Positions 2,842 to 61,634 of a DNA stretch of 64,000 nt are shown here, piece after piece. The notes beneath the pieces are model-generated. The model ran no database searches. It saw only the letters and a list, made by a program, of their open reading frames with translations, and was not told the origin of the DNA. The number at the start of each line of letters is the position of its first letter. The stretch's first letter is position 1. A program made the translations under genes and the position numbers. Source of the stretch: Lutispora saccharofermentans (lineage in GTDB: Bacteria; Bacillota; Clostridia; Lutisporales; Lutisporaceae); contig NZ_JAJEKE010000005.1 in NCBI RefSeq assembly GCF_024363565.1, forward strand, positions 124,001 through 188,000, in the 5' to 3' direction.

Positions 2842-2969
2842 TGAACGAGACTTCATTCAGAGGGGGATTCAACCCCCACTGAATGTTAGTCGAGTCCATA
2901 CTGGACTTAGCCGCTCTTGGCACCCGCCGCCTATAGAGGCGGGGGTCTTAGAGCGGGTTAGTTCAGTGA
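2842..2969 (+). mobile_element. Hairpin-rich mini-element, copy A
   Basis: A 128-bp element from TGAACGAG to GTTCAGTGA with three internal stem-loops: a GGGGG/CCCCC hairpin, GTCC/GGAC, and a large CGCTCT/AGAGCG arm enclosing a GC-rich hairpin. It matches copy D base for base. Read on the minus strand it is preceded by TTTTTA. No target duplication is visible. It sits at the 3' end of the M20 gene and supplies that gene's stop codon. Confidence 0.9.
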
Positions 2970-4313
2970 TAAAAACCTGATATAAAAGCAGATCATGTTA
3001 GAAAAATTTATTATGGATATTCTTTCATTGCTGGAATGTATAGAAGCATTATCCTTCTTGGTCAATATTACCGCTGAAAATCTATATATATTTTTGCATG
3101 AGCCCAGATACTTCCTCGAATCAGTTCCTCCGATCATTAGATAAGGCACGATCACGGCTTCCGGATATATCCCATTAATAATACTGCCCAGTATTTTGTA
3201 GGGCTCCGAATCGATAGAAGATATCTCGGAGGGTTCCTCAGCCAGCATCTTTTCTATCTGAAAATTGATACCCGGATTGACCTTTTTTATATGCTCCAAG
3301 GTGGAATCTACGCTGTCGCCCTGAAGGACCCTCAGGTTGGCTACAGTCCATGCTTTTTGCGGCAGTACGTTGGGAGCATCTCCGCCGCCGTTCATCGTAA
3401 AGGCTATGGTGGTCCTTATCAAAGCATTGGTAAGAGGGCTCTTGGCGAGCATGGAACTGATGATCGGAAAGAGACGGTCAATATTTTTTAAGACAAATTT
3501 TTTCTCTTTCATATAAGGCGCCATCGTCTTGAGCATTTCTTTCACAGGCATGGTGAGCCTGGCAGGCATAGGGTTATTCTCCACATTGGATATGATCCTG
3601 GCTATGGTGCCGATCGCAGTACTTCCGGGAGGCATGGATGAGTGGCCGCCCTTATCTTCAACGGTTATCTTGATATTGGTCGAGCCCTTCTCGGCAATGC
3701 CGATTATGGCTGCGGGTACGGTAAGGCCTTCCAGCATATCGGTTATAATGCAGCCGCCTTCATCGATTACGCATTCAAATTCAATATTTCTTTCTCTGAA
3801 GATCCTGGCTGCTTCTTCGGCTCCCCTCATTCCTCCTATTTCCTCATCAAATCCAAATACCATATAAATATCTCTCTCAGGCTTAAAGCCATTGCTTATA
3901 AGATGCTCCACCGCTTCCATTACCGCTATGACTTGATTCTTGTCATCCAGCGAGCCCCGCCCCCAGATATGATCATCCTTTATGGTTCCGGAAAAGGGAG
4001 CCTCCTCCCAATCGGCCTCTGAATCCTTTTCTATGGGAACCACATCGTAATGGCCCAGCAATAAAACCGGCTTATTGCTATTCCCCTGGCTCTCCCATAT
4101 ATATATGGGGCAATATCCGTTTACCAGCTCTTTTTTACAGGCTTTTTTTATATTTGGGTATGTGTTTTCAAGAAACAGCAAAAATTCGTCAAACAGCTTG
4201 AAGTCCATTTTCTCATGATCAGGATATGATATCGTCTTTATTTTGATTGAATCAGCCAAATGCTGCACAGCACTGTTTAGATCAAAGCTTTTTTCAATAT
4301 TTGAATCCGACAT
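2958..4313 (-). CDS. M20 family metallopeptidase (carboxypeptidase S / dipeptidase-like)
   Basis: Zinc-dependent exopeptidase or deacylase of 451 residues, probably cytoplasmic. The metal and catalytic motifs are complete: GHYDVVP (His and catalytic Asp), WGRGSLDDK (bridging Asp), FGFDEEIGG (catalytic Glu plus ligand Glu), then CVIDEGG, and a late SIHSSNER His ligand. A dimerisation domain lies between. The arrangement is closest to carboxypeptidase S / PM20D1-type members, which hydrolyse N-acyl amino acids or small peptides. The ATG at 4313 has AGGAGG 5 bases upstream. Its last codons (SLN-stop) lie inside element A; removing the element restores a C-terminus ending LMRYQSE. Activity should survive, since every ligand is upstream. 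It likely forms a unit with the YfcC-type carrier. Confidence 0.9.
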   Translation of the reverse strand: MSDSNIEKSFDLNSAVQHLADSIKIKTISYPDHEKMDFKLFDEFLLFLENTYPNIKKACKKELVNGYCPIYIWESQGNSNKPVLLLGHYDVVPIEKDSEADWEEAPFSGTIKDDHIWGRGSLDDKNQVIAVMEAVEHLISNGFKPERDIYMVFGFDEEIGGMRGAEEAARIFRERNIEFECVIDEGGCIITDMLEGLTVPAAIIGIAEKGSTNIKITVEDKGGHSSMPPGSTAIGTIARIISNVENNPMPARLTMPVKEMLKTMAPYMKEKKFVLKNIDRLFPIISSMLAKSPLTNALIRTTIAFTMNGGGDAPNVLPQKAWTVANLRVLQGDSVDSTLEHIKKVNPGINFQIEKMLAEEPSEISSIDSEPYKILGSIINGIYPEAVIVPYLMIGGTDSRKYLGSCKNIYRFSAVILTKKDNASIHSSNERISIINFSNMICFYIRFLSLN

Positions 4314-4440
4314 AGCATCCTCCTAAAATCTAATTTTTTGTTCAGTATAATAATTTTATATTACTCCATTTGCAAGCCAAGGTCTACCATATTTTACTAG
4401 GCTGGGCCAAAACATATGAGCATAGAGGCGATATAGAATG

Positions 4441-4476
4441 TTTTAAGAGGCTGCCCCGAAGGACAGCCCCTTAAAA
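4441..4476 (-). terminator. Terminator hairpin, displaced from its gene by element B
   Basis: Arms TTTTAAGAGGCTG and CAGCCCCTTAAAA-type pair almost perfectly (bases 4441-4476). It lies between the large SLH gene ending at 4611 and the M20 start at 4313 and most likely ended the SLH transcript. Element B is inserted between the SLH stop codon and this hairpin. Confidence 0.55.
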
Positions 4477-4484
4477 CATTTTTA

Positions 4485-4613
4485 ACACTGAACTAACCCG
4501 CCCTAAGTCCCCCGCCTCTACAGGCGGTGGGTTCCAAAGGGCGGCTAAGTCCAGTATGGACTCGACTAACATTCAGCGGGGGTTGAATCCCTCACTGAAT
4601 GAAGTCTCGTTCA
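4485..4613 (-). mobile_element. Hairpin-rich mini-element, copy B (divergent)
   Basis: The most divergent of the four full copies (about ten differences), in the opposite orientation to A, C and D. It is preceded on the plus strand by TTTTTA, the same target as the others. Its outer end supplies the TGA stop of the SLH gene; removal would join TAT to TAA, giving the same protein end. Confidence 0.85.
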
Positions 4614-7600
4614 ATATTTATTGTATATGCGATATAGGAATACTGCAGCCTCGGCACGGGTCACCCGGGAATGAGGGTTCAGCTTATTGCCGAAACCTGT
4701 GATCAAACCTTCCCGGACCAGTGCTGCCAAGCTTTCTGCGGCATAATCGTAGATGTCTCCCTTGTCGCTGAATCCATCCAGCGCCGAGGTATTTCCCATG
4801 ACCTTAAATTTTTTGAATTTTTCCAGTGCCCGGGCTGTCAGCACCATCATGTCCTGCCTTGAAATGCTCTCCTGAGGCTTAAACTGATTATTTCCGCTGC
4901 CTGCAGCTATGCCTAATTTCTTAGCGACTCCTATGGCTTCGTAATAATATGCGCCTGACTTTACATCCTCAAAGTTGTCTTCAAAGCTGGCTGTCAATCC
5001 CAGAGTCTTTATAAGGAAAGCAAGATAATCGGCTCTGGTGATGTTGCCGGCAGGTGAGTAAGTATTGAGCCCGGTACCGGTCAGGATGCCCTTGGAGGCC
5101 ATTGTCTCAATTGCCTTCCTTGCCCATTCCGTCATGCTCAGATCATCAAAGGTCTTGTAAACATATGCTGCTGCGTATCGGCCGAAACGGGTGCTGCTGA
5201 AGGTCATGGTGCCGGCAGTCTGATCATACCGTCCGTTTGGAACCGTAATCATATTGCCGCTGCCGTCAATATAACAGATGACTATATGTTCCAAATTGCC
5301 AGTTACCTCTCCTGCAGGCTTGTAGGGTATGGCTGCTTTCACAGAGGCATCCTCATTATTCCACAATATCTGCTTGCCATCTATCTTCATGCTCAGGTCC
5401 ATTACAGGCCCGCCATTTATTTGTTTCTTTATATTCTCAGGCAAGCTGCCATTATCGACAGCTGCCACAATTAGAGATACCTTTTGCATCCCCGCCGTAT
5501 CCGTCAGCATGTTGTCAGGCACTTCTACTGATGCGATACCGGTTTTTATTTCAATCCTTTTCTTTCCGTTCCCCGAGGTGAAAAAGCTTGCCGGAAGCAC
5601 AGCTTCATATGCTTTTGCCCCGCTCATATCAGGAATATCAATTTTTATTGTTCTTACACCTTGGGCATCTGCCTTTGATTTATCAAATGCAGCGGTCAAA
5701 GAGGGTGAATCCGGCGCGGCTGTGAAAACTCCCTTACTTTTATCCATTATTATGGGAATTGTTTTTATAACGTCTTTATTTGAGTCCAGCACTCGGGCTG
5801 CAGGCTTTTGTTCAGGCACAGCTGAAGAAACAGAGCCGCCCTTATCACCGGAGGATTCACCGCTGCCGCTTGAGCCGCCGCTGTATCTCCATGCGGCTGT
5901 GACAGTCACATCCTTGTCAGGCATGATGAAGGTAGTGGTGCTGCTGTTGGCATCGGCAAAGGCCACACCGCCGGAAGAGCTCCAGCCTGCAAAGCTGTAG
6001 TTGCTTCGGCTGCCTGCGTTGATAGTAACGGCAGCGCCCTGTGCATAGCTTCCCGCCCCGCTGGTTCCCGCATAGCTGCCATTTACAGCCACATTGTAGA
6101 GTGCTGCGGGAATTGGTTCAAAGATTGCCTTTACAGTTACGTTCTCTGCGGGCATGGTGAATTTGTTTTCTACGATGTTCACCCCGCCGCTGATAACTTG
6201 CCACTCCTTGAAGCGATAACCGATGTTAGGCGTGGCGGCCATGGTAATTTCCGTACCCGCCTGTGCGGAAATTACGTTAGCGCTTGCCGTACCGTTACCG
6301 TCATCCTGGACGGTGATTGAATAGGTATTCACGGGCAGAGCTTCATAGATAGCTGTTGCTGTAACTGGCTGAGCAGGCATAGTGAATTTTGCCGTCTGGC
6401 TGGTTTTGCTCGTACTTTCTACAAAAATAACGGATGAAGTAATGTTCCATTCCTTGAATCGCTGTCCATCGGGTGCCGCATCTGCGGTAATGGTTACGGC
6501 AGTCCCCTCCTCATAGCTGCCGCTGCCTGTACCGTTTACTACTATCAGTGCATGCTTGGGTACCGAAGTGCTTTCCTTTACCCAGACAATTGCAGTATCT
6601 TTGCTGTAGGTGTGATAGCCCGGCTTGGTGGTAGGAAGAGTCTTATCGTTCTCCGTCTTTATTGTATAATATACCTTTGCAAACACCTTGCCGGAAAGCT
6701 TGCCGTCAATGGTGATTTCACCGTTTTCGCCTGCCTCCGCGCCGATGCCGTTGAGGGCAGCTACGTTCCCGGTCACCGACACCGAGCCGTAGGAGGCGTA
6801 AACGCCCACTGTATCGCCGGCGCTGCCGGTGGCGGTCACGTTGCCGGTGACGGAAATCGTACCGTCATTGCCGTGGTACTTAACCCCGTTTGGCCCCTCC
6901 ACGTTGCCGGTGATGGCAATAGCGATGGTATCACCGGAGTTGGCCAAGCCCTCCACCGCAAAGACCGACGCCAAGGTCGAGGTAGATTTGACGTTGCCGA
7001 GCACCTTGATATCGGCATCGCCGGTGGCGTGAATGGCGCGTGCCTTGCCCGTTACATCGCCGTAGACCGTAATGTCGGATGTGGTAGAACCCTGACGGGT
7101 CCAGATGCCGGCGCTGCCGGTACTGGTCACCGAGGCGGGATTTTGCTGGCTTCCCACCGTCACGGTGCCGCCGTTTTCCACATAGATACCCGCGCCAAGA
7201 CCGCTGGCGATGTTGATATCACCGTTCACCTGGACGATATTGCCGGTATAATTGCCGCTTAGATTTATGCCGTGACACTCCCATGCGGGCTGGCCGTTTA
7301 CGATGATTGACCCGTTGAAAGAAACACTGTTGTTGCTTCCGATGGTGTATATGCCGCCCGACGCACCTGTGATGGAGCCCTTTTGGACAGTCACAGTGGA
7401 TTGGTAGGAGGCGTCAATTCCCACAGTTCTGCTGCTCTCCAGGCTTGCGTTGATATTGCCGCCGGAGCTAAAGGCGGATGCTGTAACATACAATGCGGCA
7501 AACTTAGCATTAAGGCTCAAATCCCCTGTGCCAGTTATGCTCAAATTGGCATTATTCACCACCGCAAGACCATGTCCCAACGAATTTGAGATGCTGAGAC

Positions 7601-10145
7601 TGTGGCCGTTTAGATCAAGCGTTATCGTTTTGCTATCAATCTTAACAGCACCGTCGCCGGAAACGGCTTTATCAAACGAGATATCATCCAGCAATTTGAT
7701 GGTCTTGCCGTCGGCGGCGGATAGCGCTTCGGGCAGGTTGTCATACTGTGCGCCGTCTACGATTTCGCAGACCGCTGGCGCGATTTTAACCCAAACGATC
7801 CCCGGCCCGTTTGCCACGGCGGAATATTTCAGGTAGCCGTTGTCCACTTCGCCCGAGCCCTTGGCCTTGTAAACGCTGTTCAGGTTGATATAAATGGGCG
7901 CGGTCATGATGCCTTCGATTCGGATTTGTCCGGTACCCCAGGTCTTCGCGCCGCAGCCGCCTTCCGTGCCGGTGACCTCCACATCTCCCAACACGTTTAT
8001 CTGGGAGCCGTTGCCGTTGGCATAGACTCCGAAGGCCGATCCGTTGGCGACATTGACTTTGACGTTGGTGACCGTGGCCGAGCAGCCCGCTTTGGCATAG
8101 ACGCCCGCGGAGGTATTAGCGCCGGTCACGTTGATATTAAACTCCCCGGTCCCCGCCAGGGCAAGATTGCCGCTGTTCTTGAGCTCCAGCGCGTACACCG
8201 CCGTTCCGGGCGCGGACACATTGAGGTTGAGGGTGAAGGTTCCCACGTCGAGGGTGAAGCTTTTCGTGTCCACCACGATCTTTTCGGTGTAGTTGATGTT
8301 CGCCGTCAGACGGATGGTGCCGCCGCTGACCACATTGGTCAGCGCCGCCTTCAGCTCGGTCACGTTCGAGACGGCGATGACGGAGGACGGATCTTTGACC
8401 CATACGACGCCTGTGGCGCCGGAATTGCTGTACTTGAGATAGCCGGGCTTCGCAGGATCGGGCGCGCCCTCATTCTGTGCCAGCTTTACGTTGTTGATTA
8501 GCACATAGCTGGCCGAGCCTTGGGGTGTGACGGCGCCCTCCACCGTGATGTTGCCGCTGCTGCCGCCTGTAATGACAGCGCAGTGGTTGTAGGAGGAGAG
8601 GTCGCCTTTAACGGTGATGCTGCCGCCCGCACCCTCGGTGAGCGCGCCGGCGCGGATGCCGTAAATGTCGCCCTCCACGGTGATGACGCCGCTGTCAGAG
8701 GTATGAGCACCGTAGCCGGAGGTAGCGGACACATTGCCCCCTACAATTACCTCGGCCTGATTCAGGGCATAGACCGCCCCTTGAATCTGCCCATCTGTGG
8801 AGGTGACGTTTCCGTTTACTGTGACCATGGTACCGGAATCGGTGGCATAAACCCCGTTGTTCTGCCCGGTGGCGTTGCCGCGCACCGTTACTTTAGAGCC
8901 GCCCATGGCGAAAACGCCGATGCCGTCGTTGCCGCTGGCGGCGGCGTCAATCGTAACGGTGCCCTGGTTCGCCCATACGCCGTAAAGCTTGCCGGTGGCG
9001 TTGAGCTTGCCAACGCCGGCAAGCGCCACGGTTCCCTCAGTCACCTTGAGCCCTTCGTTGGCGGTTGTATCAATCGTGAGGGTATGTCCGTTTAGGTCAA
9101 AGGTGATATGTTTCCTGTCGATGATAACACCTTGAACGGTTGTGAAGCTTTTGAGCAACTTGATGGTTGCTGTGGAACCCGCCGCTTCCACAGCCTCTTG
9201 CAGTGTCGCATATTCCGTGCCGCCGGTTTCGCAGAGCTTTTCCCCTGCGATATCCGGCGGGGTAGTTACCTTTAGCTCGATAACGTCAGTACAACGACCC
9301 AGCGGATTGGCGTAATTAGTGTCGCCTACCACCATGTAGAGGTCATATTGTATATTTCCGGCAGCTCCGGTTACAAGAAAGTTCTCTTCGCTTCCCGGAC
9401 TGAATTCCGGGCTCCCTGAGGCGATTGCGGCAGCATCGTCGCCGTCTGTGCCGGCTGCAACCTGTTCAATGCTTGGTCGGGCGGCGCCCTCAGGCAGGAG
9501 CACCCAATATACCTTGCCCTTATAGTCGTCTCCAATATTTTGCAGCTTAACCTTTACCTCTGCCTGTTTGCTGCCATCCGGCTGGGCAGCCCCCGCCATG
9601 GGATAGCCGGAAGCAAGCAAATCTGCGGGCGGCGGCGAAGGGAAGTCCACCATTGCCGGCTCCGACAGATTGCCGGCATCATCTCTCAGCACCACATAGA
9701 CGTCATAATCAGTGCTATGCTGAGGTACAAAGTCGGAAATGGTCATATCGGTGGCCATGCTCTTGCTGCCAAAAGCCTTTATAGCCGCCTGATCCGCCGC
9801 GTCCGTTCCGGTCGCAACCTGCTCTTTATTGGGTGGTACAGCGTTATTTTCCAACAGAACAGCATGATAATAAGACGGTTCCTGCGCTTTAAAGTAAATA
9901 TAAATCTGCCGCGATCCGGGTGATTGCGGGTTGTTCTTCGGGAAACCCCCTTCAGCAAAAGCCGGCGGCGTGGTGTCACCATATACAGCCTCTGAGACAG
10001 TGGGCAAAGAAGCCGGATATGCAGGCGGTGCGTCTCCCCCCGGGGCATAGGCACTCACTCCGCTCATGGTCATGGTCATCAATATGACCAGTGCCAAAAG
10101 CAGGGCAAGAAACTTAGAAAGCCCTTTTCTATTTATTTTCATCAT
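4611..10145 (-). CDS. Giant SLH surface protein with beta-helix and InlB-like repeats
   Basis: Secreted cell-wall protein of about 1844 residues. Order: signal peptide (FLALLLALVILMTMTMSGV, cleavage near AYA); two Ig-like segments; three beta-helix modules, each opening with a motif like YATLQEAVEAA..TIKLL and closing with GYLKYS....VVWVK; three InlB/Listeria-Bacteroides-type repeats (GTGSGSYEEGTAVTITA, RFKEW, FTMPA..VT); a Gly/Ser linker; one further domain; then three SLH repeats at the C-terminus (ITRADY, ISRQDM, VTRAEA) that would bind pyruvylated wall polymer. I chose the ATG at 10145 because GGAGG lies 7 bases upstream; the frame opens at 10172. The beta-helix part is visibly richer in G+C than the rest. 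A role in adhesion or polysaccharide contact is inference. The stop codon belongs to element B. Confidence 0.88.
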   Translation of the reverse strand: MMKINRKGLSKFLALLLALVILMTMTMSGVSAYAPGGDAPPAYPASLPTVSEAVYGDTTPPAFAEGGFPKNNPQSPGSRQIYIYFKAQEPSYYHAVLLENNAVPPNKEQVATGTDAADQAAIKAFGSKSMATDMTISDFVPQHSTDYDVYVVLRDDAGNLSEPAMVDFPSPPPADLLASGYPMAGAAQPDGSKQAEVKVKLQNIGDDYKGKVYWVLLPEGAARPSIEQVAAGTDGDDAAAIASGSPEFSPGSEENFLVTGAAGNIQYDLYMVVGDTNYANPLGRCTDVIELKVTTPPDIAGEKLCETGGTEYATLQEAVEAAGSTATIKLLKSFTTVQGVIIDRKHITFDLNGHTLTIDTTANEGLKVTEGTVALAGVGKLNATGKLYGVWANQGTVTIDAAASGNDGIGVFAMGGSKVTVRGNATGQNNGVYATDSGTMVTVNGNVTSTDGQIQGAVYALNQAEVIVGGNVSATSGYGAHTSDSGVITVEGDIYGIRAGALTEGAGGSITVKGDLSSYNHCAVITGGSSGNITVEGAVTPQGSASYVLINNVKLAQNEGAPDPAKPGYLKYSNSGATGVVWVKDPSSVIAVSNVTELKAALTNVVSGGTIRLTANINYTEKIVVDTKSFTLDVGTFTLNLNVSAPGTAVYALELKNSGNLALAGTGEFNINVTGANTSAGVYAKAGCSATVTNVKVNVANGSAFGVYANGNGSQINVLGDVEVTGTEGGCGAKTWGTGQIRIEGIMTAPIYINLNSVYKAKGSGEVDNGYLKYSAVANGPGIVWVKIAPAVCEIVDGAQYDNLPEALSAADGKTIKLLDDISFDKAVSGDGAVKIDSKTITLDLNGHSLSISNSLGHGLAVVNNANLSITGTGDLSLNAKFAALYVTASAFSSGGNINASLESSRTVGIDASYQSTVTVQKGSITGASGGIYTIGSNNSVSFNGSIIVNGQPAWECHGINLSGNYTGNIVQVNGDINIASGLGAGIYVENGGTVTVGSQQNPASVTSTGSAGIWTRQGSTTSDITVYGDVTGKARAIHATGDADIKVLGNVKSTSTLASVFAVEGLANSGDTIAIAITGNVEGPNGVKYHGNDGTISVTGNVTATGSAGDTVGVYASYGSVSVTGNVAALNGIGAEAGENGEITIDGKLSGKVFAKVYYTIKTENDKTLPTTKPGYHTYSKDTAIVWVKESTSVPKHALIVVNGTGSGSYEEGTAVTITADAAPDGQRFKEWNITSSVIFVESTSKTSQTAKFTMPAQPVTATAIYEALPVNTYSITVQDDGNGTASANVISAQAGTEITMAATPNIGYRFKEWQVISGGVNIVENKFTMPAENVTVKAIFEPIPAALYNVAVNGSYAGTSGAGSYAQGAAVTINAGSRSNYSFAGWSSSGGVAFADANSSTTTFIMPDKDVTVTAAWRYSGGSSGSGESSGDKGGSVSSAVPEQKPAARVLDSNKDVIKTIPIIMDKSKGVFTAAPDSPSLTAAFDKSKADAQGVRTIKIDIPDMSGAKAYEAVLPASFFTSGNGKKRIEIKTGIASVEVPDNMLTDTAGMQKVSLIVAAVDNGSLPENIKKQINGGPVMDLSMKIDGKQILWNNEDASVKAAIPYKPAGEVTGNLEHIVICYIDGSGNMITVPNGRYDQTAGTMTFSSTRFGRYAAAYVYKTFDDLSMTEWARKAIETMASKGILTGTGLNTYSPAGNITRADYLAFLIKTLGLTASFEDNFEDVKSGAYYYEAIGVAKKLGIAAGSGNNQFKPQESISRQDMMVLTARALEKFKKFKVMGNTSALDGFSDKGDIYDYAAESLAALVREGLITGFGNKLNPHSRVTRAEAAVFLYRIYNKY

Positions 10146-12625: not shown

Positions 12626-14649
12626 TATTTGTTTAAAGCATCACTTATGCTGTCAAACATGCTTTCTTCTGCTTTAAGTTTTAAGCCGTTACCTATTACG
12701 CATAAATTATTCTGCTTCATAATTTCATCGATTAATTCCGCGTAATTCCTTATATCTTCTGCTTTTGTATCAAAAATTTCATCCCGATATTTTTGTATAT
12801 CCTGCTTTGTTTTCCCTGTTATATACATTCTGTCCCATACCCATCCTTTGTTTTTTGGTTCCAGTTCAAAATCTATGTATTCTATTGATTTATATATATA
12901 ATTATTCATTTCTTCACGGCTTGGATTAAAGCTTTTTAAAAAAAGGCCGGCATTATTAAATACATTAATGGTTTCTTTCAAATCAGGATCATCAAAGGAA
13001 TAAAAAACAATTGTGGATTCATCTATCCAGGCGCCTTCCCCATAGGCGCCGCCCTTAAGCCTGATTTCCTCAAACAGATATTTGTCTATTATTCTGTTAA
13101 GCACGGCAAGCTTGCCGCTTTCTTCATAGCCAAGCTTCTTAAAATCACCGGCTTTGGTTATATACTGAACATTGACCGGCGATGTATAAGCCTGATTTTT
13201 TTCAGAACATTCAAATTCATATTCTTGCTTAGGCAGATTATTAATCTTCAGCTCAGTTATAAAATTTTCCAGGGTCTTTTCAAACTGAAGGAAATCATTT
13301 TCCCCACCTGTATAACTCACAATCAAGTTTTCTTTATCAAAGGCAATTTTGCTTACTTCCTCCAGATTCCTTATTATCTCATCGGCCTTTAACTCAAAAT
13401 TGGCGTCTATATCTGAAATAAACATATAAAAAGGAATAGAACTCAGGCTGTTGTACTTTTCCTTGGGTGAAAGACATGATAAAGCCTGAGATGCAGCATA
13501 CGATAAAGGATTGTTTTCTAATTCAAATTTATTATAAGACTTTATTTGTCTTATTAATTTATGTAATTCTTCCTTATTACTAAACTTACTGTTATTCTTT
13601 ATTTCACCTAATAAAGCAAATCCTTTTTCGAGATTTTCCTTTAAGATGCTCATGGATACCTGCAATTTAGGATAATATTCGCCATGCTTCTTACTGTCTT
13701 CATAAGCATAAATACCAAAGTCAATACCGCCTGTATAGGTTTTCACCATATTATCCAGTTTGGAGGAACCGTAGCTTGCAGTATCAACTCTTCCAAGAAG
13801 TTTAGTTAATAAGATTAAATACATCAGCCGGTCTTGGCTAACCTTTTTAGTATCATAGTAAAAATGTATATAGCCTATACCATTTGTAAATATAGAATGA
13901 TTTAAGGCCTTAACCCCATTAATTTCCTTTATGATCGTCGGAATGTCTTCCGTTTCTTTTTTTAATCCGGCAAGATTATTCTCTGCTGCTTTTCTTTCTT
14001 GGATAGTCTTCTCCTGCCATTTTAAGAAGTCCTGGTTTTCCTTAATTATTGCATTCATTTTTTCCTGAGATAAGCCCGCTTTTAATTCTGCAAATTTATT
14101 TTTAGAATCTTCTGCAAGCTTTTCCTGCAGGCCTACCTTTGGCTTTAAGACTACTAAAGATGAATGATTATTCTCCAAAAAATATTTTTGAATTATCTGC
14201 TCAAAATACTTGTCATTACTTTTTGCTCGCAGTTTACCAATTTGAGCATTTTTAGAAAAAGCTTCTTCAAAGCTTTCATCATATAACCAGGCATCTGTTG
14301 CTGTAATAATATTTCTAAGGCCTTTATCTTTAGAAATCACATCGTCACGTATTGTCATTTCATAGGAATTAAATACTGACTCTAAAAGCTCTTGATCAAA
14401 ACCGTTTTCTACTATATCAGTCAGTATCCCTCGAACAGTTCTTTGAAGCTTTTCTTTGCCATAATCCTCATCAGCTTCCATTATCAGACTCCAGCTGAGC
14501 TGTTTCCCGCTGCCTGCCGTAGTATAAGGAGTGCCTGCCTTACTATCAATAATTGCCTTTTTAAAAGGTGAAGCATCTGTCATCAAGAGATAATCCAGAA
14601 TATCTAAGGCAGTGTTTAAATAATCACTTATATATATCTTAAGATTTTC
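12625..14649 (-). pseudogene. 5'-truncated M16C (presequence-protease-like) peptidase
   Basis: The 653-residue frame matches the middle and C-terminal parts of M16C peptidases (PreP/Cym1 type, normally about 970 residues): NGVKALNHSIFTNGIGY, the second-half fold with LLTKLLGRVDTASYGSS, and the C-terminal substrate-contact part RLKGGAYGEGAW. The N-terminal third with the zinc motif HxxEH is missing. The frame is open without a start from 14649 (ENLKIYISDYL...) and stops at a TAA inside a 17-bp repeat (14638-14654). The first possible start is a TTG or ATG at 14586/14583 without a ribosome site. I read it as a truncated, zinc-less remnant. A second-hand non-catalytic role cannot be excluded. 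Confidence 0.75.
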
Positions 14650-14654
14650 TTATG
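14638..14654. repeat. 17-bp direct repeat, copy 1
   Basis: CTTAAGATTTTCTTATG on the plus strand, exactly repeated at 15729-15745. The two copies bracket the D,D-carboxypeptidase gene. This copy marks the point where the M16 reading frame is broken. Confidence 0.85.
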
Positions 14655-14660
14655 GATATC

Positions 14661-15653
14661 TTATTTTTTTAGGTACTTCCCATAAACCATAAATGCATCC
14701 ATGATATGATACTGTTTTGTCAAATGATCACCTGGAGCTCCTGCGGTAATCAAAATATACTCGTTTCCGTTTTTTTCAGCCAAGCTGGCCAGGCACAGGC
14801 CGGATTCACGGGTATAGCCGGTTTTACCGCCGAGGATCCTTCCCCCGTCAAATTCATAGGTATCCATTTTTTCAAACATAGTACTGTAATAAGTGATTCC
14901 ATCGGGGTGCATATTGGTGCCCGCAGTGGAATGGCGTGCAGAAGTAAAAACCTCACGAAATGTTTTATTTTTCAGCGCATATTCAAGCAGCACGGAAATA
15001 TCCTTTACTGTAGTATAATGGTTATCATCGTAAAGGCCGCATACGTTTGTAAAATGAGTATCATTCATACCAAGCTGCTTTGCCTTTTTGTTCATCAGCT
15101 TTACAAATTCATCTTCTGAACCTGAAACTCGAAGAGCAAGTCCCATGGAAGCATCGGCGCCTGAAGGCAAAAGCGTTCCATACAGTAGATCAATCACAGT
15201 AACTTTCTCACCGGGCAAGAATCCCGCCATCGAAGCATTAGCTGCATATAGACTCGGGAAAATGTTCTCCGGAAGAATAACCGACTCCTTCAGATCAGAA
15301 ATATTCTCCATTGCTATTATTGCAGTCATTATTTTTGTCAGAGATGCCGGATAGATTCTTTCCTCACTCCTGGTTCTAAAAGCTACCTTATTATCCTTAA
15401 GGCGAATCAGTATTGCATATGGGCTGTACAGCTCTTCTTTTATAGAGTTGAGGCTTATCGGCTCCTTTATACCTGCCGGCGATGAGTCTTGAGACTGCGG
15501 ACCCCGTAATGGAGAGGAAATACCCCTAAATGGCCTGCTCAAAATAAACGGCAGAAAGTTACTGGCAGTTTTATAGGCTCCATTTGCCAAAAAGACAATG
15601 AACAAAGTTAAAACAAAGATTCTGATATATTTGGGTTTTCTTTTTCGACTCAT
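14661..15653 (-). CDS. Serine D-alanyl-D-alanine carboxypeptidase (PBP5/DacF type)
   Basis: Removes the terminal D-alanine from peptidoglycan stem peptides on the outer membrane face. The protein has 330 residues with an N-terminal membrane anchor (IFVLTLFIVFLANGAYKTA). Peptidase S11 motifs are present: SLTK (YPASLTKIMTA, nucleophile), SGA in LLPSGADAS in place of the usual SGN, and KTG (GGKTGYTRES). The C-terminal PBP5 beta domain is absent. The ATG at 15653 is served by an AAGGAG that is buried in the 3' arm of an 18-bp hairpin (15655-15709). It sits downstream of a wrecked VanRS-like two-component system, an arrangement seen for D,D-carboxypeptidases under wall-stress control, so it may have lost its regulator. 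Confidence 0.9.
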   Translation of the reverse strand: MSRKRKPKYIRIFVLTLFIVFLANGAYKTASNFLPFILSRPFRGISSPLRGPQSQDSSPAGIKEPISLNSIKEELYSPYAILIRLKDNKVAFRTRSEERIYPASLTKIMTAIIAMENISDLKESVILPENIFPSLYAANASMAGFLPGEKVTVIDLLYGTLLPSGADASMGLALRVSGSEDEFVKLMNKKAKQLGMNDTHFTNVCGLYDDNHYTTVKDISVLLEYALKNKTFREVFTSARHSTAGTNMHPDGITYYSTMFEKMDTYEFDGGRILGGKTGYTRESGLCLASLAEKNGNEYILITAGAPGDHLTKQYHIMDAFMVYGKYLKK

Positions 15654-15654
15654 T

Positions 15655-15709
15655 AAAACACAACTCCTTCATATGGTCTATTGAACCATAAATGAAGGAG
15701 TTGTGTTTT
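15655..15709 (-). promoter_or_regulatory. Hairpin covering the ribosome site of the carboxypeptidase gene
   Basis: Two perfect 18-base arms (AAAACACAACTCCTTCAT and its complement) enclose a loop with a further ATGGT/ACCAT stem. On the minus strand the 3' arm contains the AAGGAG of the gene starting at 15653 and ends in TTTT just before AATG. It can act as a terminator for transcripts from the two-component genes, as a block to translation of read-through RNA, or both. Confidence 0.75.
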
Positions 15710-15728
15710 AATTCCGGCTTATGAAAAG

Positions 15729-15745
15729 CTTAAGATTTTCTTATG
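15729..15745. repeat. 17-bp direct repeat, copy 2
   Basis: Second exact copy of CTTAAGATTTTCTTATG. Here it is the natural 3' end of the histidine kinase reading frame (codons for the last residues and the TAA). Confidence 0.85.
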
Positions 15746-15876
15746 CTGGGCAGAATAACTGTAAAAATAGTCTGAACGTCGTCACTTTGTACATAAATAC
15801 TGCCGCTATGAGCTGTTACAATTTCTTTTGCAATAGATAGGCCCAGTCCTGCACCGCCTGTTTTCCCTGGGGTGTC
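15730..15876 (-). pseudogene. Histidine kinase C-terminal relic (VanS-like)
   Basis: In the frame shifted from the response regulator, the minus strand encodes DTPGKTGGAGLGLSIAKEIV, the G2 box of a HATPase domain, then TAHSGSIYVQS and FTVILPS to a TAA at 15730. Everything upstream of this in a normal kinase (sensor, HisKA, N and G1 boxes) is missing. A single deletion has joined the regulator's wing domain to this tail, with a frame change at about 15876-15893. Confidence 0.85.
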
Positions 15877-16561
15877 AATATAGGATAAAATTCCTCAGAG
15901 CTTACCACACGTCCCCGGTTGGAAGCCAGTACCCATAAAATAGAAAACTCTGTAGGAGTAAGAGAGAGCAATTTTTCGTTAAGCATGCATTCATGGGTGT
16001 TCTTATCCAGAATCAGACCGGAAAACTCGATTATTTTCTGCTCTTGTGGCGGTTCGACAGTATTGTATTTGGTAAACCTGCGGAGCTGCGCCTTCACTCG
16101 GGCAATTAATTCAAGCGGCCGGAAGGGCTTAGTAATATAATCGTCGCCACCTAGCGTAAGCCCTGTAATCTTGTCGATTTCCTCATCCTTAGCTGTTAGC
16201 ATGATGACCGGAAAGTTATGTTTTTCACGAATGCGCCGGCAAATTGAAAAGCCGTCCACATCAGGAAGCATCACATCTAGAATAGCCATATCCGGTTTTT
16301 CATTTTCATTGAACGAGACTTCATTCAGAGGGGGATTCAACCCCCACTGAATGTTAGTCGAGTCCATACTGGACTTAGCCGCTCTTGGTACCCGCCGCCT
16401 ATAGAGGCGGGGGTCTTAGAGCGGGTTAGTTCAGTGATAAAATTCAGAGCATCCTGCCCATTATAAAATTTGAAAACATTATAATTCTCATTCTTCAGAT
16501 ATAGCTCAATCAAGTCTGCAATAGACTGCTCATCATCCACAACCAATATGTTTGCAATCAT
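15877..16561 (-). pseudogene. OmpR/VanR-type response regulator, interrupted and truncated
   Basis: The receiver domain starts at the ATG at 16561 (MIANILVVDDEQSIADLIEL), is broken after residue 41 by element C (16310-16437), and resumes with ENEKPDMAILDVMLPDVDGF containing the phospho-accepting Asp, LTAKDEEIDK and DDYITKPF with the conserved Lys. The winged-helix domain follows (LTPTEFSILWVLASNRGRVVSS) but is cut off before its recognition helix by the deletion into the kinase. Removing exactly 128 bases restores the receiver frame (NFNENEKPD). The gene cannot make a functional regulator. The nearest relatives are VanR-like regulators of wall-modifying genes. Confidence 0.9.
16310..16437 (+). 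mobile_element. Hairpin-rich mini-element, copy C, inside a gene
   Basis: 128 bp, one base different from copies A and D. It interrupts the response regulator after codon 41. Read on the minus strand it is preceded by TTTTA and followed by AT, and precise removal restores an open reading frame, which fixes the element's ends and shows no lasting target duplication. Confidence 0.93.
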
Positions 16562-16667
16562 ATTTTTTAATCACTCCGTATCCCTATTATTCTACTATAT
16601 TATTCCTTCCTTATGCCGATATATTGTTAAACAGTAATAAGGCCAATTAACACATACCCACCGCAGC

Positions 16668-17327
16668 TTATGAAGCTTTTATAACAAGCCCTAATAATTT
16701 TGAAAAGTCTATCGCTTGCATAGGGGAAACTATCGCACCTCTAAGATCTTCAGGCCTTATACCTAATCCTTCAACATCAGAATCAGTCAAATCTATTCCT
16801 GATAAGCTGGTTCCTGACATCTGGCTCAGTCTGAAATTACACTTTCTGACCTCCACCTTATTAAAGATACTGCTCTGAAAGTTACTGTTTTCAAACATAC
16901 AATCCGAGAATACCGCATTTTTCATTCGAATAAAACTCATTACAGCAAATTTACCATTGCAGTTTTTCATATAAATGTTCTGGAGCGTTGCCTCGCTGAG
17001 GTTCATGCCCACAAGCTTGCAATCTATAAACTCTGTCCTATGAATAATTGCACCGCTGAAGTTTGCGTTTGACAAATCACAGTTTTCAAACCTTACATCT
17101 GTAAGCTCCAGAGAATTAAATCTAGCACCTTTGAAGTCCACTTTATTGAAAATCACACCTTCAAAGCTTATTTGATCAGCTGCCTGCCTATCGACTTTGC
17201 AATCCGATATATAGATATCCCTGATGCTGCTTTCGTCTTCGATTTCAATGGCTCTCGTGCATGTGTCTTCGATTCCCCTTATGAATTTGGGCTTGATTAT
17301 TGGTGAAAGAGCTTGCTTGCTATTCAT
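16668..17327 (-). CDS. Pentapeptide-repeat protein
   Basis: A 219-residue protein built largely of pentapeptide repeats of A(D/N)LXX type, for example FEGVIFNKVDFKGARFNSLE and LSNANFSGAIIHRTEF from about residue 50 to 195. This predicts a right-handed square beta-helix. No signal peptide or membrane segment is visible, so it is probably cytoplasmic. Some family members (Qnr, MfpA) mimic DNA and protect gyrase, but most have no known role, and nothing here singles out that function. It is divergent from the kdp operon and downstream-oriented toward the dead two-component genes. A single-gene transcript is likely. Confidence 0.85.
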   Translation of the reverse strand: MNSKQALSPIIKPKFIRGIEDTCTRAIEIEDESSIRDIYISDCKVDRQAADQISFEGVIFNKVDFKGARFNSLELTDVRFENCDLSNANFSGAIIHRTEFIDCKLVGMNLSEATLQNIYMKNCNGKFAVMSFIRMKNAVFSDCMFENSNFQSSIFNKVEVRKCNFRLSQMSGTSLSGIDLTDSDVEGLGIRPEDLRGAIVSPMQAIDFSKLLGLVIKAS

Positions 17328-17768
17328 TTTGAAGTCTCCTTAGTATTTTATTTGAATTTGATGTAGATACAGATGAAATATATTGCATTTCATAGCTGTA
17401 AAAATTCATATATCTGATTTTTTTATATTATTCAATCCTATCTATCAAGTCCTTAATACAATTCTTTTTCCCCTTTGCTAGCCTATGAATATTTTGTACA
17501 TTTAAATATGTTGATAGAAAGTATAATGCTGCTGATACGGCAATTATCCGGCCGGCATTTATATTAACGGCATTTTGCCTGCTATACACTAAAGATATAA
17601 TATTTGGGTGTACTTCTCAAGCTCTTCTTTATACATTCTTTATCTCACCATATTTCCCCTTTACGCCATCTTTATGAAGAAATAATTATAATTAAATTGA
17701 TAGGAGACATTCAATGGTTGGAGATTAATGCTTATAGTCCTTAAAGAAAATTAAGTGAGGTGAAACCC
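17328..17768. other. Divergent intergenic region before the kdp operon
   Basis: An AT-rich 440-bp gap between the pentapeptide gene and the kdp operon. No reading frame of note. One possible plus-strand promoter is described separately. I looked for a c-di-AMP (ydaO-type) riboswitch because potassium transport genes often carry one, and found no match to its conserved core by eye. Confidence 0.6.
17575..17601 (+). promoter_or_regulatory. Possible kdp operon promoter
   Basis: TTGCCT and TATAAT separated by 15 bases, about 170 bases upstream of the first gene. The -10 box is perfect; the spacing is short, so this is tentative. Confidence 0.35.
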
Positions 17769-18155
17769 ATGACAGATAATTTAAAGCCATACGATAATTA
17801 CATCCAATCGGCTATAAATGCCTTAAAACAGAGGAGCTATCCACAGGCAGAAGAAAGTATCAAGCAAGCTATGCTTATAAATCCGCATTCTTCTGTTGTT
17901 CACAATTTGTATGGTATATTTGAAGAGCTCTTAATGAAAGATAATCTAGCCCGCAAGCATTATAGGGCAGCCTATGCCCTTGATCCAACATATAAGCCTG
18001 CAATTCGGAATCTGGAGCGTATATCGACCTTTGAGTACTACCTGAAAAGAATCCCTATTGATTTTGGTGACCAGCCGGAAGAGGAAACTGAAGATACGTA
18101 CCCTGCATATTATGATAACCCTGTAATGCATTTGTGTAAGAAAAAAAAGGAGTGA
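17769..18155 (+). CDS. TPR-containing protein, first gene of the kdp operon
   Basis: A 128-residue hydrophilic protein with about two tetratricopeptide repeats (IQSAINALKQRSYPQAEESI, then VHNLYGIFEELLMKDNLARKHYRAAYALDP) followed by a charged tail. Tetratricopeptides usually mediate protein contacts. GAGGTG lies before the ATG at 17769; an earlier GTG at 17760 is the frame's first start but overlaps that ribosome site. It is 7 bases from kdpF and co-directional, so it is very likely co-transcribed with kdpFABCDE. It is not part of the standard Escherichia coli Kdp system. A role in assembling or sensing for the Kdp complex is inference. Confidence 0.8.
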   Translation: MTDNLKPYDNYIQSAINALKQRSYPQAEESIKQAMLINPHSSVVHNLYGIFEELLMKDNLARKHYRAAYALDPTYKPAIRNLERISTFEYYLKRIPIDFGDQPEEETEDTYPAYYDNPVMHLCKKKKE

Positions 18156-31526: not shown

Positions 31527-31654
31527 TGAACGAGACTTCATTCAGAGGGGGATTCAACCCCCACTGAATGTTAGTCGAGTCCATACTGGACTTAGCCGCT
31601 CTTGGCACCCGCCGCCTATAGAGGCGGGGGTCTTAGAGCGGGTTAGTTCAGTGA
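31527..31654 (+). mobile_element. Hairpin-rich mini-element, copy D
   Basis: 128 bp, identical to copy A. On the minus strand it follows ATATTTA, so it is again 3' of TTTA. It sits 9 bases beyond the tetR stop codon, between the gene and its terminator. Confidence 0.92.
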
Positions 31655-31663
31655 TAAATATTG

Positions 31664-46016: not shown

Positions 46017-46080
46017 ATGAACAATAAAAAATACCTTCTGCTATGGTTTTTTATCCTATAACAGAAGGTATTTTTTATTG
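46017..46080 (-). terminator. Terminator repeat, copy 1
   Basis: Arms AAAAAATACCTTCTG and CAGAAGGTATTTTTT with a 22-base loop; ends mazF transcription. The whole 64-bp unit, loop included, recurs with two differences at 61572-61634. Confidence 0.88.
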
Positions 46081-61571: not shown

Positions 61572-61634
61572 ATGAACAATAAAAATACCTTCTGCTATGG
61601 TTTCTTATCCTATAACAGAAGGTATTTTTTATTG
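61572..61634. terminator. Terminator repeat, copy 2 (bidirectional)
   Basis: Arms AAAAATACCTTCTG and CAGAAGGTATTTTT between convergent XRE and JAB genes. Nearly identical, loop included, to 46017-46080. Confidence 0.88.

Follow-up and report, generated by a model that had tools for sequence, protein, structure and literature searches.

Organization of the carboxypeptidase locus

The window, i.e., the whole stretch of 64,000 nucleotides of Lutispora saccharofermentans DNA that was analyzed, carries on its minus strand, in this order, a broken vanR-vanS remnant, a VanR-type box, a hairpin, an ATG and a carboxypeptidase gene (Table 1). The protein scored 74.6 bits against the NCBIfam model vanY_of_D (cut-off 625), its matches to VanY-D and other carboxypeptidase models were all far under cut-off, and no vanY_BG match (VanY-B/VanY-G family) was found for it (P0001) at E ≤ 1e-3. 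After these family searches, the name "vanY" was narrowed to an S11 serine-type enzyme in the vanY position. The enzyme of the Enterococcus faecalis vanG operon belongs to another vanY family. The product in the window is a wall-modifying enzyme, and its gene is related to vancomycin-resistance operons.

Table 1. Features of the carboxypeptidase leader and its surroundings (window coordinates).
Feature	Position	Strand	Basis
Serine-type (S11) D,D-carboxypeptidase, 330 aa, vanY position	14661..15653	-	Pfam PF00768, E 4.7e-43
Hairpin 3' arm with SD AAGGAG (15664-15669) and T-rich tract before ATG	15652..15672	-	sequence, SD accessibility
Predicted start of transcription, some 43 to 46 nt past box	15672..15675	-	inferred from -10 position
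Extended -10-like element TATGG-TTCAAT (TRTGnTTnAAT), +28 to +38 from box, top of 5' strand	15680..15690	-	45-leader register
Hairpin 5' arm with anti-SD CTCCTT; predicted promoter spacer DNA, predicted absent from own-promoter RNA	15692..15712	-	inverted repeat and promoter register
Possible degenerate -35 AAAACA, 9-14 nt past box, foot of 5' arm	15704..15709	-	sequence; weak, inferred
VanR-type box, three half-sites spaced 11 nt, CATAAG AAAAT CTTAAG CTTTT CATAAG	15718..15745	-	sequence; consensus score 24/27
Wrecked vanR-vanS: vanR start, dispersed-repeat interruption, junction to last vanS codons	15730..16563	-	profile matches, sequence

The box contains the stop codon of the vanS remnant (TAA, 15732-15730). 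The match of an upstream ORF (15816-16367) to the VanR-ABDEGLN model covers profile positions 37-179 of 226, and a deletion appears to have joined this vanR frame to the last codons of vanS. A dispersed repeat also interrupts vanR. Every one of the 116 bases searched (16325-16440) recurs elsewhere, so that these coordinates do not delimit the insert; there are at least 41 genome matches at 86-100% identity, with 40 of 88 candidates scored. The repeat is at least 116 bp long, has internal hairpins and further copies near 2857-2972, 4482-4598 and 31542-31657, and looks like a small non-autonomous mobile element.

A box similar to that in the window precedes vanR in the genomes with the leader. 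The window box would fit a VanR-activated promoter resembling PYG of the E. faecalis vanG operon, with repeated putative VanR sites upstream of -35 and -10. A second VanR-like box (14627-14654, minus strand) lies directly past the carboxypeptidase stop and is followed by the ORF of a truncated M16-type (PreP-like) peptidase, which suggests that another VanR-controlled gene was deleted there.

A long hairpin that contains the ribosome binding site

The hairpin lies between the box and the carboxypeptidase ATG. Its arms are complementary at 21 of 21 positions and are separated by 19 nt, and an inner stem is present in addition. Folded as RNA, with the plus strand as input, it reaches -34.5 kcal/mol, compared to a mean of -10.65 (sd 2.57) for dinucleotide shuffles (z -9.28), none of which was as stable (0/200). 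The initial annotation had proposed a hairpin of 18 bp, which is correct as to the hairpin itself, whereas the perfect arms measure 21 bp. Its other two placements hold, AAGGAG within the 3' arm and TTTT beside the ATG: on the minus strand, the Shine-Dalgarno (SD) motif AAGGAG (15669-15664) is followed by TTGTGTTTTA up to the ATG (15653-15651), with TTTTA directly before the start codon.

Among the 13 pairs listed by an inverted-repeat search of the 64 kb (arms of at least 15 nt, at most 80 nt apart), this hairpin is the longest perfect repeat. A search of Rfam with leaders L005, L003 and L061 and with window positions 14000-17800 gave nothing at the gathering score, only sub-threshold matches. 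Elsewhere in the window, two near-identical inverted repeats, AAAAATACCTTCTGCTAT and ATAACAGAAGGTATTTTT, at 46022-46080 and 61581-61629, are possibly copies of one small repeat.

Conservation of the hairpin in orthologous leaders

Genomes for comparison were chosen by the carboxypeptidase protein alone (P0001, E ≤ 1e-80), which gave 50 genomes (18 + 9 + 1 + 22). An order-level search had returned only the 22 genomes already known from a family-level search. A hairpin at the same place, with the SD in its 3' arm, was found in 43 of the 50; these 43 carry 16 family labels, all within a single class. Hairpin presence and start codons were judged by reading, and one leader (L101) has ATA where the others have ATG. 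Seven genomes were counted as hairpin-less: G238 (L051, a small 9-bp stem beside the SD), G333 (L058, a short stem away from the SD), G534 (L096, a decayed hairpin remnant without a recognized box), G576 (L093), G556 (L099), G619 (L100) and G601 (L105). The L096 locus contains two more box-like repeats CTTAAGAAATCTTAAG, near 922 and 2634, the second of which, by eye, precedes a VanW-like start.

Sequences diverge between leaders, and pairing is retained. In an 18-pair stem, 89.4% of 785 cells are standard pairs, compared to 40.4-59.9% for slid partners. The covariation score is 0.231 versus 0.197 +/- 0.009 for shuffles, of which none was as high (0/500). Parsimony on a protein tree of 43 sequences gives 12 changes from one Watson-Crick pair to another. 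Seven pairs changed on both sides, by itself a weak measure, as 31 of 500 shuffles equalled it. G-U cells outnumber A-C cells (127 versus 22), and at 7 free pairs the changes are 18 versus 7 (p 0.04). As proof of RNA pairing this asymmetry was weakened, since SD and promoter constraints alone yield such an excess.

The two strands of the stem are constrained differently. On the 5' strand, promoter bases 28, 30 and 31 have zero entropy and their partners 0.6-1.15 bits; on the 3' strand, A-G-G of the SD has zero entropy and its partners 0.44-1.1 bits. Each strand keeps its own signal, and pairing is maintained by wobble and compensatory change, which is the pattern that a read-through lock around a promoter predicts.

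In its own genome, the leader DNA has only two further matches, its own reverse strand and the leader of a vanG-type cluster. When 391 genomes of the class were searched for the box followed, after 27 nt, by TNTGNTTNAAT, 14 of them yielded a total of 15 hits; read backwards, this combination was found in none of the 391. Fourteen of the hits were leaders already in our set, and the fifteenth (in G214) is an intact leader in front of a broken carboxypeptidase gene. No match to the leader was found in plasmid DNA. Protein searches returned 3 plasmid records and 12 phage records, in which the carboxypeptidases are more distant; in the 2 of these 15 records that were examined, the leaders had neither box nor hairpin. 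Together, these data identify a real and conserved hairpin element, which is probably functional.

An extended -10-like element at a fixed distance from the box

We analyzed 45 leaders (44 of them distinct), namely those of the 43 genomes, the copy in the vanG-type cluster of the same genome (L003) and L064. Positions are numbered from the point where the third half-site of the box ends; the box of L088 was shifted by 11 nt for an extra half-site, L099 and L051 were left out, and the boxes of L059, L060 and L061 are weak. T28, T30, G31, T33, A36, A37 and T38 are invariant in 45/45 leaders. Position 29 is always a purine (G in 39, A in 6) and position 34 is T in 42. Position 24, by comparison, is spread over all four bases, and positions 40-44 are mixed. 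Gram-positive promoters of the extended -10 type have TRTGn ahead of the hexamer. The hexamer of the leaders, TTnAAT, has no A at its second position in 44 of the 45 leaders, and a generic sigma-70 scan of 15400-16000 reported no promoter.

Match to TATAAT alone does not single out this register. Averaged over the leaders, it is 4.29 at offset 36, 4.18 at offset 2 and 4.13 at offset 33, the last being the only one of the eight best offsets that never falls under 4/6. The best TTGACA-like match starts at offset 7, which corresponds to a 20-nt spacer. Positions 5-14 are also conserved (A5 in 44, T8 in 45, A12 in 44 and A14 in 43 leaders); they would fit a -35 region, and equally a promoter further upstream.

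Orthologous leaders without a hairpin retain a hexamer in this register. Three of the four that have a box (L093, L105, L100) show TAGAAT or TAAAAT at exactly 33-38; in the fourth (L051, weak box), TAGAAT is found at 37-42 instead.

As an independent comparison, the vanR promoters of the same genomes were taken. From 17 sequences (16 stretches and the vanR promoter of the cluster in the same genome, L129, whose box was located by reading), L136 and L138 were dropped because they had no box of 15/22, which left 15. A hexamer starting 32-38 nt past the box is a perfect TATAAT in 9/15 and a 5-of-6 match in 14/15, versus means of 0.28 (maximum 3) and 3.0 (maximum 10) in mononucleotide shuffles. 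The register is looser than in the leaders: 5-of-6 hexamers start at 32-34 in 8/15 (shuffle mean 1.38, maximum 6), and the mean TATAAT match is best at offset 9 (3.6), then at 14 (3.27), then at 34 and 37 (3.07, equal to offset 1).

The promoter PYG of E. faecalis has a comparable geometry. According to PMC4405338, VanRG protects -100 to -56, and at higher concentration to -43, upstream of a -35 (AAAACA) and a -10 (TACAAT) that are 16 bp apart. If the footprint edge marks the end of the box, the -10 of PYG would lie about 31-33 nt past it, which is compatible with the leader register. Since the invariant element, the hairpin-less orthologues, the vanR promoters and the PYG geometry combine in this way, transcription should begin near +45, where the loop ends on its 3' side.

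Predicted accessibility of the ribosome binding site

Among the 28 candidate genes of the window with an SD-like motif, the carboxypeptidase gene has the least accessible SD (0.000 unpaired). Over the 45 leaders, the predicted unpaired fraction of the SD has a median of 0.02 in read-through RNA, folded from 30 nt before the box end, and of 0.69 in RNA starting at +45. The predicted own leader would then be about 20 nt long in the window, with a median of 26 nt (15-27) over the 45 leaders. The gain in the window is modest (0.00 to 0.34), and L059 behaves opposite to prediction (0.41 to 0.23). The hairpin-less leaders L093 and L105 change little (0.55 to 0.50 and 0.51 to 0.65, respectively). A start at +12 leaves the SD as buried as in read-through RNA (median 0.02), so that, of the starts folded, only one inside the hairpin opens it.

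These values bear on two claims of the initial annotation. That a transcript starting inside the hairpin would expose the SD agrees with the folding from +45. That read-through RNA would be terminated or untranslatable agrees, in its second part, with the predicted SD burial; termination is suggested by the T-rich tract, and a terminator scan that allowed loops of up to 8 nt did not call the hairpin. In the 45 leaders, the spacer between SD and start codon is 72% T and 10% A, compared to 39% T and 35% A in a rough control from the window (44 redundant matches, the carboxypeptidase gene included). A histidine-kinase gene ends upstream on the same strand in 33 of the 45 loci, at most 125 nt from the ATG in 20 of them; no such end was found in the other 12. 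It is plausible that the hairpin also terminates the vanRS transcript.

A probable promoter-wrapping hairpin and its alternatives

We consider it quite probable that the hairpin functions as a lock against read-through and encloses a promoter that depends on an activator. VanR would bind the box, and RNA polymerase would recognize the extended -10 (TRTGnTTnAAT), which lies at the hairpin top on the 5' strand, and would begin RNA synthesis at the loop's 3' edge. With this start, the anti-SD-bearing 5' arm would serve as promoter spacer and be absent from the short leader of the gene's own mRNA, leaving the SD free. Read-through RNA from vanRS, upstream on the same strand, would contain both arms, fold and hide the SD, and perhaps terminate at the T-rich tract. 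The carboxypeptidase, and the products of any genes behind it, would consequently be made only with VanR active at this promoter. A regulatory switch that insulates the gene from the upstream operon, as initially annotated, is supported by the hairpin in 43/50 genomes and by the invariant extended -10-like element at a fixed distance from the box. Because the vanRS genes upstream are wrecked in the window, the argument for insulation is drawn from the relatives. The initial annotation had counted against itself an mRNA start always 3' of the first arm together with an unconserved hairpin; the start is indeed predicted 3' of the first arm, but the hairpin is conserved.

One alternative is a start upstream of the hairpin, from a -10 such as TGGAAT or TAGAAT just past the box, in which case all transcripts would carry the hairpin as a conditional SD lock, a thermosensor or a 5' stabilizer. 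Many hairpin loci do have T(G/A)(G/A)AAT after the box, the offset-2 mean is among the highest, and the hexamer of L079 at this offset is TATAAT without mismatch. Positions 5-14 show strong conservation as well, and in the vanR promoters the mean match peaks at offset 9. Yet the offset-2 hexamer drops to 2/6 in some hairpin loci and in the hairpin-less L093, an upstream start leaves the TRTGnTTnAAT of 45/45 leaders unexplained, and 9/15 vanR promoters have their perfect TATAAT in the downstream register; in PYG, as far as described in PMC4405338, the VanR sites are upstream of the -35. It would moreover need a signal to open the SD, which stays buried from +12, and no Rfam family was found at cut-off. 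We regard this reading as rather unlikely. Still less likely is a hairpin that is only the intrinsic terminator of vanRS, with the SD placed in the 3' arm for economy of space and no translational lock. The T-rich spacer and the nearby kinase ends in 20/45 loci speak for it, and termination as such is compatible with a read-through lock, but L003 keeps the hairpin despite what by eye is a separate terminator after vanS, the terminator scan with loops of up to 8 nt made no call, and predicted SD burial is near complete.

The inverted repeat could also be a DNA operator for a dimeric repressor, for example a VanU-like regulator, and PMC4405338 describes VanUG of E. faecalis as binding imperfect inverted repeats with a footprint that overlaps PYG. 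However, an SD fixed on one arm, promoter bases on the other and common G-U pairs are better explained by RNA pairing, and we judge an operator very improbable. A chance palindrome or mobile-element relic of one genome, suggested by the much-copied repeat nearby, has a negligible probability: that repeat differs in sequence from the leader, the leader has only its two further matches in the genome, and the hairpin is kept in the orthologous leaders of 43/50 genomes.

A more far-reaching version of the read-through lock is tentative, and we give it somewhat less than an even chance: a two-level insulator within an activator-dependent promoter, the spacer of which also supplies the anti-SD strand of a hairpin resembling a terminator. 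Such an element would block incoming RNA by termination and SD occlusion, and start lock-free RNA when VanR is active. If so, basal expression of a costly van-type operon would be independent of the transcription of the adjoining regulator genes. Expression of van-type operons carries a fitness cost, and, as far as described in PMC4405338, transcription factors fully account for their control. Where a conserved hairpin encloses the promoter, silencing would gain another, built-in layer that holds however strongly the regulator genes are transcribed. The leader would represent a simple, testable design of an activator-dependent promoter that ignores incoming transcription, and the lock would be missed if the -10 were annotated simply as part of the loop, or if the hairpin were taken for a riboswitch or for nothing more than a terminator.

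Comparison with known systems

Similar locks are known from phages. According to PMC3014915, the SD of T4 gene e is hidden in long early transcripts, from which about 100-fold less lysozyme is made, and the late transcripts lack the 5' strand of the hairpin. Likewise, according to PMC2988022, I-TevI and mobE have an SD-hiding hairpin in long transcripts from upstream promoters. As far as these sources describe them, the systems share with our leader an SD hidden in the long transcript and a near promoter that gives RNA without the 5' strand, both of which are predictions in our case. They differ in serving phage early/late timing from phage late promoters, whereas the predicted promoter of the leader combines a VanR box with an extended -10, belongs to a bacterial operon under two-component control and is conserved across 16 family labels within a single class. 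Its -10 would lie at the top of the hairpin, in the 5' strand. The leader would thus work like the T4 gene e lock, built on a VanR-type bacterial promoter, a likeness that is one of prediction. In IS10 and IS50, too, external read-through RNA is made untranslatable and the element's own transcript is translated. That arrangement is self-protection of a mobile element with respect to its transposase; here, an activator-controlled chromosomal operon is concerned.

Among van-type promoters, PYG resembles the predicted promoter of the leader: its VanR sites precede a -10 and a degenerate -35, vanRS lies upstream, and it drives resistance genes (PMC4405338). The word "hairpin" is absent from the main text of that paper, and the likeness concerns the promoter layout. 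The dacJRS locus of Clostridioides difficile is similar by description only, with a two-component system beside a D,D-carboxypeptidase that has its own promoter (PMC11326576). In the open library searched, we found no paper linking vanG and vanY to a stem-loop, or vanY to a hairpin together with a promoter and ribosome binding site.

A second copy of the leader in a vanG-type cluster

The second leader of the genome belongs to a vanG-type cluster on contig C4 (positions 2892-9145 of stretch L129, minus strand), in which vanR, vanS, vanW, the vanG ligase and vanT reach their NCBIfam cut-offs, and a vanXY-like protein matches below cut-off. The cluster has an intact hairpin leader like that of the window, followed by a carboxypeptidase gene that is shortened internally. 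As the local VanRS pair is broken, the window promoter would be drivable only in trans, and the intact VanR of this cluster could in principle do so. In the vanR promoter of the cluster (L129, about 9130-9245, minus strand), a perfect extended -10, TGGTATAAT, with its hexamer at 34-39, comes after a VanR-like box, and this vanR looks autoregulated, unlike VanRG of E. faecalis.
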